From positions 1 through 36,562 of the forward strand of contig JAGLUN010000053.1 in the NCBI GenBank assembly GCA_023134705.1: 36,562 nt of DNA. The letters are read 5' to 3'. This DNA comes from Candidatus Omnitrophota bacterium. GTDB taxonomy: Bacteria; Omnitrophota; Gorgyraeia; Duberdicusellales; 4484-171. Position numbers and translations under genes: made by a program. The notes under the pieces were generated by a model that worked only from the letters and a program-made list of their open reading frames with translations, searched no databases and was not told the origin of the DNA. Below are positions 3,944-12,351 of the stretch, in pieces (the first letter of the stretch is position 1; each line of letters opens with the position of its first letter).

Positions 3944-3982
3944 GAAAGTATAAAAAGGCAATCCTGTAAAAGCTAGGTGTTT

Positions 3983-4021
3983 TAACTTGACAAAACCTTT
4001 TGAAAGGTATGTGTCAAGTTA
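3983..4021. repeat. Two-tier inverted repeat: outer 10-bp arms TAACTTGACA/TGTCAAGTTA, inner CCTTT-TG-AAAGG
   Basis: Read directly; arms 3983-3992 and 4012-4021, inner hairpin 3996-4007. Confidence 0.8.
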
Positions 4022-4055
4022 GAGGGATAAACTTTTGCTGAAGGAGAATAAGAGG

Positions 4056-6203: not shown

Positions 6204-7232
6204 ATGGAAGATATAAAAGACTTTGGGTTGGAAGAGTTGAAGGAATCCTTACTGAATAAAGGGTATCCTCGTTTTTTAGCCCGGCAGGTTTTTAGCTGGA
6301 TTTATGGAAAAAGGATAGAAGATTTTAGCTTAATGACCGATATTTCCCGGAAGGCACGCAAATTTTTGGAGAATAATTTCTATATTTCAGGGCTGAAGCT
6401 TTTAGAAAAAGAAACCTCGATTGACGGGACAGAGAAATTTTTGTTCCGGCTCCGGGATAATTCAACGATAGAAACTGTTCTGATTCCCGAAGGCAAAAGG
6501 AATACCCTTTGTATTTCTACTCAGGTAGGATGTAGATTCAGATGCGCTTTTTGTGTAAGCGGGATAAATGGCTTTAAAAGGAATTTAAAGAGTTCCGAGA
6601 TTACCGGGCAGTATTTAGAGGTGAGCAGATTTAAAAAAACAAAACCGGTTACCAACATTGTTTTTATGGGTATAGGCGAACCTTTGGATAATTTCGATAA
6701 TCTGGTAAAAAGTATCGGCATTTTAACGGATCCCTCGGGAATCAGCCTGGGGAAAAAGAGAATCTGTGTTTCCACTGTAGGGATAATTCCGGAGCTAAAA
6801 GAATTAATCGCCTTGAATTTGGGGGTTAAGCTATCTGTCTCTTTGCATTCGGCAGATGCCTTTAAGCGTGAAAAACTTATGCCTATAGCGAAGAAATATC
6901 CTTTAGACGAATTAATTAAGGTGGTGAAAGACTTTTGCCGTAAAATAAAGGTGCCGCTTACTTTTGAATATATCCTTATCGGAAAGGTTAATTCTTCCAG
7001 GCAAGACGCTTTAAAATTAGCAAAGCTAACTAAAAATATAAATTGCAAGGTAAACATTATTCCTTATAATCCTTCGTCTTATTTTAAGTGGCTGAAACCT
7101 TCTTCTGAAGAAATCGAAGGCTTCTCAGATGTTTTACGAAAGTATAATCTGCTTTTTACTTTGAGGAAACCTAAAGGCTGGGATATCAACGCGGCTTGTG
7201 GGCAGTTAAGAGCGAAATTCGGTTGCAAATGA
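6204..7232 (+). CDS. rlmN: Dual-specificity 23S rRNA/tRNA A2 methyltransferase RlmN (radical SAM)
   Basis: CRFRCAFC radical SAM motif, GIGEPLDNFDN, SLHSADAFKREKLMPI, GWDINAACGQL. Confidence 0.92.
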   Translation: MEDIKDFGLEELKESLLNKGYPRFLARQVFSWIYGKRIEDFSLMTDISRKARKFLENNFYISGLKLLEKETSIDGTEKFLFRLRDNSTIETVLIPEGKRNTLCISTQVGCRFRCAFCVSGINGFKRNLKSSEITGQYLEVSRFKKTKPVTNIVFMGIGEPLDNFDNLVKSIGILTDPSGISLGKKRICVSTVGIIPELKELIALNLGVKLSVSLHSADAFKREKLMPIAKKYPLDELIKVVKDFCRKIKVPLTFEYILIGKVNSSRQDALKLAKLTKNINCKVNIIPYNPSSYFKWLKPSSEEIEGFSDVLRKYNLLFTLRKPKGWDINAACGQLRAKFGCK

Positions 7233-8140
7233 CCCCTTCATACATATCCCTACATGAGAACGGAATTTTAGATGAAATTAAAAATAAACTTTTAGAGGAA
7301 TTAGGAAGCTGCGATTTATGCCCGCATAAATGTAAAGTGAATAGGAACAACGATGAAACGGGATTTTGTGAAATAGGACGTTTAGCTAAAGTGAGTAATT
7401 TTTTTCTTCATTTCGGAGAGGAGCAGGAACTTGTCGGGGAAGGGGGATCAGGCACGATATTCTTCTCAGGATGCAATTTAAGGTGTATATTTTGTCAGAA
7501 TTATACTTTATCTCATTTAGGAGAAGGGCAAATCGTGACTCCTCAGGAATTGGCTGGAATGATGTTAGTATTGCAGAATAACGGCGCGGAAAATATTAAT
7601 TTCGTTACCCCTACACAGGTAATTGCCCAAATAATTGAGGCTTTACCATTGGCCATAAATAAAGGGCTTACTTTACCTTTGGTTTATAATTGCGGAGGGT
7701 ATGAGAACCCGGAAGTTTTAAGGCTGATAAAAGGCATTTTTGATATTTATATGCCTGATATAAAATATGCCGATGATGAAATTGCGGCGAAGTTCTCCTG
7801 CGCTCCTGATTATTGGGAAAAGGTTAAAACGGTTATAAAAGAAATGTATTCTCAGGTTGGCGATTTATTAATTGAAGAAGGAATTGCTAAAAGAGGGCTT
7901 CTTCTTAGGCATCTGGTTCTTCCTCAAAGATTGGCTGGTTCCTTTGAAATACTCGATTTTATAAAGGAAGAAATCTCCCTGGATACATATGTGAATATAA
8001 TGGAGCAATACCGTCCCTGTTATCGCGCGGGAGAATTTAAAGAACTGTCTCGGCGGTTAACTGACCGTGAATATGAAGAAGTAATCGAGTATGCCCAAAA
8101 AATCGGCCTTTATCGAGGTTTTCCCCATCCCCTAACGTAA
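7229..8140 (+). CDS. PflA-like radical SAM protein
   Basis: SGCNLRCIFCQNYTLSH (CX3CX2C), CDLCPHKCKV. ORF track starts at GTG 7196; ATG 7229 more likely. Its last codons lie in repeat R1. Confidence 0.8.
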   Translation: MTPSYISLHENGILDEIKNKLLEELGSCDLCPHKCKVNRNNDETGFCEIGRLAKVSNFFLHFGEEQELVGEGGSGTIFFSGCNLRCIFCQNYTLSHLGEGQIVTPQELAGMMLVLQNNGAENINFVTPTQVIAQIIEALPLAINKGLTLPLVYNCGGYENPEVLRLIKGIFDIYMPDIKYADDEIAAKFSCAPDYWEKVKTVIKEMYSQVGDLLIEEGIAKRGLLLRHLVLPQRLAGSFEILDFIKEEISLDTYVNIMEQYRPCYRAGEFKELSRRLTDREYEEVIEYAQKIGLYRGFPHPLT

Positions 8141-8174
8141 CAAAATCAGTTCAGGACTAAAAGTGTTGCATTAG
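8133..8174. repeat. REP-like hairpin repeat R1 (left end of RAYT unit)
   Basis: TAACGTAACA-AAATC-AGTTCAGGACT-AAAAG-TGTTGCATTAG; imperfect palindrome, 34/42 identical to R2. Confidence 0.85.
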
Positions 8175-8200
8175 AAAGTAGAGAGGATATAATAGACGAT

Positions 8201-9106
8201 ATGGATATTGCAAATTTATTAGAGGAGAAGAGATTAAAGAGGTTTTTTAGCGTAAAGCATAAACTTATAGTAGAGAACGGGTTGTATCATGTTACTCAGC
8301 GTGCTCCTGGCAGAGAAATATTGTTTTTAGAAGAAGCAGATTATCTTTATTTCCTTCATCTTCTTAAGGAGACTTCGAAAAAATTTAATGTCGATGTTTA
8401 TGCTTTTGCTTTAATGCCGAATCATTTACATCTGTTTGTTTATTTGAACGAAAAAAATTTAGATAAAGCTATGAAAAAAATTTTTCAGAGATACGCAATA
8501 TATTTTAATACAAAATACTGCAGGAAAGGGCATGTGTTTTGTGGTGCATATCGATGTGCCTTATGCAATGATGAAAGATATGCTTTAGTTACTTCTTTGT
8601 ATATTCATCTAAATCCTTTTAAGGCCGGTTTAGCAAAAAATATGCAGGGGTATCGATGGACATCTTTAGAGATATATTTGAATCCAGAAATAAAGTCCTT
8701 TGTGAAAAACGATAAGATTTTAAAGTTTTTAGACTCTGATAAAGAAAAAGCAGCGGCGATTTATAAAAATATATTAAAAGAAAGCAGTGGAATAGATTAT
8801 AAGTCCCGATGGGGAACCTTTAAGGAGAGTAAAAGCATTTTTGAACTATTCTTCAAAAAGATGGAGATGTTAAAAATAGTTGTTCAGAAGAAAAATGAAA
8901 AGGTTTTCCAGCCTTTAAATAAGAAGATAAATGCGCTCAGAATGAAAAAGAAATTGATTTCCTCCGAAGATAAAAAAGCTTTAATCTATACAATAGAACA
9001 ATTGAAAAGCAGAGGCTTTAATCTTACAGAGGCAGCCGAAATTTTAGGAGTAAGCCGGACGAAGATTTACCGCGTAGCGAATGTAACAAAATCAGTCCTG
9101 AACTGA
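8201..9106 (+). mobile_element. RAYT / IS200-like Y1 HUH transposase with C-terminal HTH
   Basis: GLYHVTQRAPGREILF, HUH motif MPNHLHLFV, FQRYAIYFNTKYCRKGHVFCGAYR, YIHLNPFKAGL; C-terminal GFNLTEAAEILGVSRTKIYRVAN. Confidence 0.88.
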
Positions 9107-9120
9107 AAGTGTTACGTTAG
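9079..9120. repeat. REP-like hairpin repeat R2 (right end of RAYT unit)
   Basis: GAATGTAACA-AAATC-AGTCCTGAACT-GAAAG-TGTTACGTTAG; overlaps the last codons and TGA stop of the transposase ORF. Confidence 0.88.
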
Positions 9121-9130
9121 AGGTTAAATA

Positions 9131-10075
9131 ATGAAGGAAGAATTATATCGGCTTCCCCAGGAATTTCTGGCGAAGCTTAAGAAAATTTACCCCGGGAATT
9201 ATCATAAAATATACGAAACTTTTTTAGAGAAAAAAGAACAGTCTTTCAGGATAAATTATTTAAAAACGGATTTAAGGGGATTGCGTAAACTTTTAATTAA
9301 TGAGAAGATAAAATGTAAAGAATTGCCTTATCCCAAAGGGAGTTTCCTTCTAAAGTCCGATTTAAGGAAATTGCAAAAAAGCTTTATTTATCAAGATGGT
9401 TTAATATATGTCCAGAATGTTTCCAGTATGATCCCTCCTTTAGTTTTAGATCCCGGGCAAGGGGAGCGGATTTTAGATTTATGTGCTGCCCCAGGAGCAA
9501 AGACTACCCAGATGCTTTCTCTGGCGGGGAAGGAGTTAGAGCTTATAGCAGTTGAAAAAATCAGGGTTAGATATTATAAGCTTCTTGCTAATTTAAAGAT
9601 TCAGGGTGTTGATTTTATAACCCCTCTTCTTTTAGACGGGATATGGGTTAGAAAAAAATTCCCCGAATATTTCGATAAGGTTTTACTGGATTCTCCCTGT
9701 TCCTGTGAAGGGTTATTTTACGTGAAGAATCCGCGCAGTTATAAATATTGGAAGCAGCGAAAGGTAAAAGAAATGGCCCATAAACAGAAAAGGTTAATTT
9801 CTTCAGCAATCTATTCGCTCAAAGAAGGCGGGGTCCTAGTTTATTCTACCTGTACCTTTTCACCCGAAGAAAATGAAGGAATTATTAATTGGGTATTAAA
9901 TAAATTTAAAGATAGCCTGCAGATAGTTCCGATTAAAATCCCCCTTAATAATGTTACCCCGGGGCTTATTAGATGGAGAGATAAAACTTTCTCTTCGGAT
10001 TTAAAATTCTCTTTACGGATAATCCCTAATCGTTCTATGGAAGGGTTCTTTCTCGCCAAGTTGATAAAAAGATAG
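9131..10075 (+). CDS. RsmB/NSUN-family RNA m5C methyltransferase
   Basis: LDLCAAPGAKTTQM, LLDSPCSCEGLF, VYSTCTFSPEENEGII. Confidence 0.87.
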   Translation: MKEELYRLPQEFLAKLKKIYPGNYHKIYETFLEKKEQSFRINYLKTDLRGLRKLLINEKIKCKELPYPKGSFLLKSDLRKLQKSFIYQDGLIYVQNVSSMIPPLVLDPGQGERILDLCAAPGAKTTQMLSLAGKELELIAVEKIRVRYYKLLANLKIQGVDFITPLLLDGIWVRKKFPEYFDKVLLDSPCSCEGLFYVKNPRSYKYWKQRKVKEMAHKQKRLISSAIYSLKEGGVLVYSTCTFSPEENEGIINWVLNKFKDSLQIVPIKIPLNNVTPGLIRWRDKTFSSDLKFSLRIIPNRSMEGFFLAKLIKR

Positions 10076-12066: not shown

Positions 12067-12234
12067 ATGCCGAGAAGCAAAAGGATAAATGTGGCAGGTG
12101 GAATATATCATGTTATCGTAAGAGGTATAGAACCTAAGGGGCTATTTAAGGACAATAAAGACCGCCAGGGATCTTTATCCCGCCTGGAAACCAGTTTAAA
12201 AAAGGCAAAATCTAATTTGAAAGTTTCGGCATAA
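12067..12234 (+). pseudogene. Truncated RAYT transposase remnant (55 codons)
   Basis: MPRSKRINVAGGIYHVIVRGIEPKGLFKDNKDRQGSLSRLETSLKKAKSNLKVSA* matches RAYT N-termini and stops before the HUH motif; followed by repeat R3. Confidence 0.75.
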
Positions 12235-12238
12235 GTTC

Positions 12239-12280
12239 TTATGTAACAAAATCAGTCCTGAACTGAAAGTGTTACATTAG
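12239..12280. repeat. REP-like hairpin repeat R3
   Basis: TTATGTAACAAAATCAGTCCTGAACTGAAAGTGTTACATTAG; outer arms ATGTAACA/TGTTACAT perfect. Confidence 0.88.
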
Positions 12281-12281
12281 G

Positions 12282-12300
12282 AGGACTGAAAGTGTTGCAT
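12282..12300. repeat. Half-copy R4 of the REP-like repeat
   Basis: AGGACTGAAAGTGTTGCAT; 18/19 identical to the right half of R1, directly abutting R3. Confidence 0.75.
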
Positions 12301-12351
12301 AAGGGGTATAGAAAGATGTTTAAGGAATATTGTGCAAAAATTGTGATAGAG

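Follow-up and report, generated by a model that had tools for sequence, protein, structure and literature searches.

The window analysed here, a 36,562-nucleotide stretch of DNA, is one contig (C49) of an Omnitrophota MAG (1.41 Mb, 94 contigs, 91% complete). At the junction of two other genes it holds a transposase gene between two nearly palindromic repeats. The locus raises the question of what these repeats are to the enzyme, and whether gene and repeats together form, or once formed, a mobile element. Our analysis points strongly to positions 8132–9120 being a transposable (or formerly mobile) unit, accompanied by a small population of non-autonomous hairpin copies lying between genes.

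The transposase and its two end hairpins

The unit is 989 bp long and consists of a Y1/HUH single-strand DNA transposase gene (8201–9106, + strand, 301 aa) with its two end hairpins. The gene was assigned from its intact ORF, Pfam matches and predicted fold. Pfam returned PF01797 (Y1_Tnp, E = 2.2e-10) together with a C-terminal HTH (about residues 266–293), the tail of the window protein matching HTH_8, HTH_17 and HTH_28. The HUH motif is NHLH (74–77) and the tyrosine motif YIHLNP (134–139), so that both marks of the Y1 HUH transposase superfamily (TnpAY1), an HUH motif and one catalytic Tyr, are present. His75, His77 and Tyr134 were invariant in 36 aligned sequences; among the aligned relatives the Y1_Tnp domain was found in 36/36, HTH_23 in 25/36 and HTH_28 in 12/36. 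Among PDB folds an AlphaFold2 model (mean pLDDT 82.6) best matched 4ER8, the REP-bound E. coli RAYT (E = 5.7e-6, TM-score 0.77 by target), with IS608 next. The initial annotation had called the protein a RAYT. Its Y1/HUH assignment holds and the fold agrees with it, but the RAYT label is loose: the NCBIfam RAYT model NF047646 scored 58.3 bits against the window protein, under the cut-off of 80, and the hairpins have no GT[AG]G foot.

Both ends are nested hairpins of 43 nt (one nucleotide longer than first annotated) read on the - strand: R1 on the left (8132–8174, covariance-model match of 69.3 bits) and R2 on the right (9078–9120). R1 is laid out as outer arms of 11 nt, A/T linkers, an inner stem of 4 bp and a 5-nt apex. 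As had been described, R1 and R2 differ at eight positions (8/43), their linkers (AAAT/AAAG) are identical, and their inner 11-mers are exact reverse complements. Linker orientation is kept and the apices are exactly inverted (three positions): in the reading direction CTTT..ATTT the apex is CCTGA in R1 and, flipped, TCAGG in R2. The same apex inversion was seen at two other loci, on one central base. The perfect 11-bp inverted ends said to enclose the ORF are also there, CTAACGTAACA (8132–8142) being the exact reverse complement of TGTTACGTTAG (9110–9120); they result from the repeat being palindromic and present twice, and are not an independent feature.

The two hairpins reach into coding sequence. 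R1 encodes the last codons (CTA ACG TAA), including the stop codon, of the upstream radical-SAM (amrS-like) gene (7220–8140, + strand), and R2 covers the 3' end of the transposase gene, stop codon included. The downstream neighbor, an RsmB/F-type rRNA methyltransferase gene (9131–10075, + strand), starts 10 nt past the unit. As single-stranded DNA, R2 folded better than shuffled sequences on both strands (z = -3.8/-3.3); the folding of R1 was no better than shuffles (z = -0.2/-0.4). A 28-nt core had 3 matches in the window, compared with 0.00 in 100 shuffles.

Matched hairpins across the transposase clade

Among named genomes, 49 relatives of the transposase were recovered at 36–53% identity, a few of them cut by contig ends, below which the score dropped from E = 9e-50 to 2e-32. 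The nearest relative shares 53–54% identity with the window protein. In a protein tree the window protein and its relatives formed one clade of 50 sequences (support 99/100), mostly from Omnitrophota. Records titled Thermodesulfobacteriota, Myxococcota, Stahlbacteria/WOR-3 and others also fall inside the clade, and some of these may be mis-binned contigs.

At each locus, a repeat common to the region upstream of the start codon and the region around the stop codon was sought. Paired nested hairpins were present at both ends in 42/48 loci with usable flanks (window included). With a fixed score cut-off, paired ends were found in 40/46 clade loci, against 0/37 displaced decoys. Non-clade Y1 loci gave paired repeats in 15/30, as expected, other Y1 genes also having end repeats. 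The clade hairpins are nested and 41–43 nt long in nearly all lineages, and 72 end hairpins from other loci could be aligned nearly gap-free. Over outer and inner stems, covariation reached 0.652 compared with 0.184 ± 0.013 in shuffles, and 321 cells were changed on both sides compared with 111. Paired cells made up 87%, against 33–36% in slid registers, a percentage that is inflated because a palindrome scan picked the hairpins. That selection does not by itself account for the match between the two ends or for the extent of the covariation. Pairing is kept in relatives, with stems that covary across species.

The most conserved element is ACA/TGT at the inner end of the outer stem, with a C-G pair in 71/71 hairpins. 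The feet read CTAA/TTAG, CTTA/TAAG and similar, and the only hint of a target-site consensus was a pyrimidine-rich left flank. In many clade loci (e.g., L105, L142, L100, and L131) the right hairpin overlaps or directly adjoins the stop codon, and the frame past the stop is similar to the C-terminal end of the window protein; the likeness arises because the hairpin encodes both.

The invariance of the linkers between R1 and R2 had suggested recognition or guide sequences, an idea that did not survive the comparison across species. The linkers of the 72 end hairpins are merely A/T-rich (95–96%), and the combinations AAA/TTT, TTT/AAA, AAA/AAA, and TTT/TTT are all present. As a result about 40% of linker pairs are unable to pair and the rest give a continuous hairpin. 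In an exploratory set of nine tests of linker and arm divergence, linker differences had no detectable link to transposase divergence. Outer-arm divergence tracked that of the Y1 domain (partial Mantel r = 0.23, p = 0.001) and not that of the HTH (0.06, p = 0.18), the latter being a weak test on a short stretch. Taken together, the variation of the linkers and the correlation of the arms with Y1 argue against guide sequences and favor the view that the Y1 domain recognizes the outer stem.

We propose that when the region becomes single-stranded the repeat would fold into an outer stem, an A/T internal loop, an inner stem and a loop, and that the Y1 domain would bind this folded DNA with its specificity mostly in the outer stem. 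Cutting near the hairpin foot would proceed through Tyr134; the DNA between the cuts could then be excised and re-inserted at a new site. Acting in trans, the enzyme might likewise mobilize lone hairpins, a route already suggested for REPs and RAYTs.

The palindromes could instead serve as double-stranded operators or end sites for the HTH, in autoregulation or end recognition, with single-strand folding incidental. This would suit hairpins that are nearly strand-symmetric and free in end orientation, an R1 that folds weakly and lies just upstream of the gene, and the HTH-like C terminus of most clade members. We consider it unlikely, though the strongest competitor, given that arm divergence follows Y1 and not the short, weakly tested HTH, and that Y1 enzymes of known structure act on single-stranded DNA hairpins (4ER8, IS608).

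The relative orientation of the two end hairpins varies from locus to locus, with 18 pairs in the same orientation and 15 flipped; the flipped apex of the window unit was thus rejected as a general rule. The enzymes of the clade might recognize their near-symmetric nested hairpins whichever strand these lie on, which would let the ends work either way, and their activity might turn the inner hairpin around with respect to the outer stem; we regard this suggestion as quite doubtful. A comparable outcome is the flip/flop that an HUH nuclease produces at parvovirus ends. For free orientation and an inverted apex, the ordinary explanation would be template switching during replication across palindromes.

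Hairpin copies, apparent relics and mobility in Omnitrophota

Further copies of the hairpin, which the initial annotation proposed to look for, do occur in the host genome. A degenerate 22-nt pattern matched 10 sites, and the reversed control pattern none; a covariance model built from nine copies added one site on C51 and a weak partial one on C16. About 11 copies of the 43-mer are therefore counted in the 1.41-Mb genome, with the consensus (in one direction) CTAATGTAACA-CTTT-CAGT-CCTGA-ACTG-ATTT-TGTTACATTAG. Two copies, R2 and a third window hairpin (12238–12280, - strand), have the exactly inverse apex TCAGG with unchanged linkers. All copies outside the window (8/8) lie between ORFs, and only one of the 15 hairpins examined elsewhere (8 with the 43-mer, 7 with a different sequence) overlaps an ORF. 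Among the host copies alone no covariation was detected, as they are too alike, and the test works only across species. The third hairpin is followed to about 12303 by a partial tandem duplication, which repeats its right half and whose end pairs with the left arm (CTTATG/CATAAG). By eye, a second and truncated Y1 transposase gene seems to begin before this hairpin (MPRSKRINVAGGIYHVIVRG...; window 12067–12303); Pfam gave no confirming match for the putative remnant (12067–12231), a stretch too short for one.

A model built only from other species, without window sequences, found R2 and several other host copies. It also detected hairpins of different sequence on C27, C71, C35, and C72 and in the window at 3982–4022 (+ strand). 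This last has the same architecture with different stems (TTAACTTGACA ... TGTCAAGTTAG) and lies between two genes, which by eye are secretin-like and ExeA-like; no cognate transposase for it was identified in the host genome. As that genome holds only one transposase of the clade, the different-sequence hairpins look like relics of earlier, related elements. In genome G029 at least 14 hairpins were counted, and no clade transposase passed the cut-off applied. Over 37 genomes hairpins went with transposase presence (12/14 against 7/23, Fisher p = 0.002), a census in which the association is partly built in, some training hairpins coming from the same genomes.

The unit occupies exactly the junction of the amrS and RsmB/F-type genes. 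In three other genera (G001, G007, and G009) the two genes are directly joined without a unit, and in several other relatives about 0.6 kb separates them. The closest relative, G002, has its transposase homolog elsewhere, upstream of rlmN in the same cluster. Within genus g23, one hairpin (on contig 12 of G031) is found in G031 and G032 but not in G029, G030, or G028; G031 and G029 have a second one, which is missing, along with about 250 nt, from G032. On these comparative grounds the mobility of unit and hairpins is well supported, bearing out the earlier claim that the unit is, or was, mobile. Hairpin positions are often common to congeneric species (78–86% nucleotide identity), which implies that movement is slow, and with one clade transposase in the host genome there is no direct sign of recent movement of the whole unit. 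The search for empty sites yielded loci without the unit or without single hairpins, but four regions of congeneric genomes gave no empty site whose junction was sharp at the nucleotide level. Left junctions fell in diverged intergenic DNA, and one site retains only the right arm; flanks in the nearest genera were too diverged, and congeneric cases were blurred or left half-hairpins.

Other features were seen in the congeneric genomes. Opposite L244:845-885, G032 has outer arms joined by a short A/T stretch (TTATGCAACAAAAGTGTTGTATTAG), the inner stem-loop being lost. At the G032 site matching L247:1037-1077 (L288/L292), the outer arms and linkers are kept and the apex carries an extra hairpin of ~55 nt, apparently a further small repeat that has inserted there. 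A separate interspersed repeat, about 80–110 nt long and in many copies (L243:46-128 and L244:262-373 in G029), shows 75–88% identity among copies in congeneric genomes.

A single transposase with dispersed extragenic hairpins is the RAYT pattern, and together with the positions shared by congeneric species it would fit a canonical, domesticated RAYT, in which the host retains enzyme and hairpins for a function of its own and the hairpins merely spread slowly. This is very unlikely for an HTH-tailed protein that falls under the RAYT model cut-off and whose hairpins lack the GT[AG]G foot; moreover, its homologs are non-syntenic and patchy across genera, and several phylum titles in one clade suit a mobile element better. 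Several copies sit a few bases 3' of a stop codon, as ordinary intrinsic terminators or other RNA hairpins flanking the gene by chance would, but near-identical copies genome-wide, lineage-specific stems matched at both ends of each transposase across the clade, the empty decoys and the lack of any Rfam match in the window make this highly improbable.

Relation to TIRYTs, RAYTs and IS200/IS605

The failure of two canonical RAYT features (GT[AG]G foot and curated model), with the HTH and YIHLNP, brings the unit nearer to TnpAY1 subclass 2.1 and the TIRYTs. Subclass 2.1 (Bertels group 1) has a C-terminal HTH (HTH_23/HTH_28/Bac_DnaA_C), the tyrosine motif Y[IV]HLNP or YIELNP and HUH motifs listed as NHVH/NH[YF]H, and no REP-like sequences were reported near its genes (Quentin et al., 2018; PMC6006769). 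TIRYTs, mostly of subclass 2.1, have terminal inverted repeats; some TIRtron repeats are self-complementary or double-palindromic, some occur in small dispersed families, and most described TIRtrons have a GGGGWSAS motif in their repeats (Di Nocera et al., 2013; PMC3733652).

Like these, our element has a Y1 transposase longer than RAYTs, with C-terminal HTH and YIHLNP, and terminal repeats at both ends that are unrelated to GTAG REPs, here in varying relative orientation. It differs in the nested hairpin at either end, whose arms covary and which comprises an outer stem, an A/T internal loop and an inner stem; in its HUH motif NHLH; and in the presence of paired hairpins in 42 of the 48 loci. 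GGGGWSAS was not seen in the 72 aligned hairpins. With the E. coli REPtron (TnpAREP, 4ER8) it shares the closest solved fold and an internal bulge in the hairpin, and with RAYT/REP systems a single transposase copy, dispersed cognate extragenic hairpins and a hairpin type of its own for each transposase. Unlike them, it lacks the GT[AG]G foot, its protein carries additional middle and HTH domains, and its hairpin copies number about 11 where theirs run to hundreds. IS200/IS605 elements (IS608, ISDra2) are alike in Y1 fold, small size and a hairpin near each end, but here the motif is YIHLNP (YxxxNP) and not YxxxQ, there is no tnpB, the hairpins are near-symmetric without fixed relative orientation, and no high-copy near-identical units occur (one clade copy in the genome). 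As far as sequence features can tell, the element resembles REP/RAYT in how it would work and a TIRtron in how it looks, and by domain, motif and repeat features a variant of TIRYT/subclass 2.1. What is new is the occurrence of REP-like hairpins on transposases of a type reported without them.

For a large group of HTH-tailed Y1 transposases, these data provide a putative hairpin substrate aligned across a whole clade, and they document REP-like repeats and apparent relics in a candidate phylum that has received little study. With ends so nearly symmetric, one may ask how the enzyme distinguishes strands, if it does so at all; the matched enzyme–hairpin pairs from more than 40 loci form a test set for hairpin choice.
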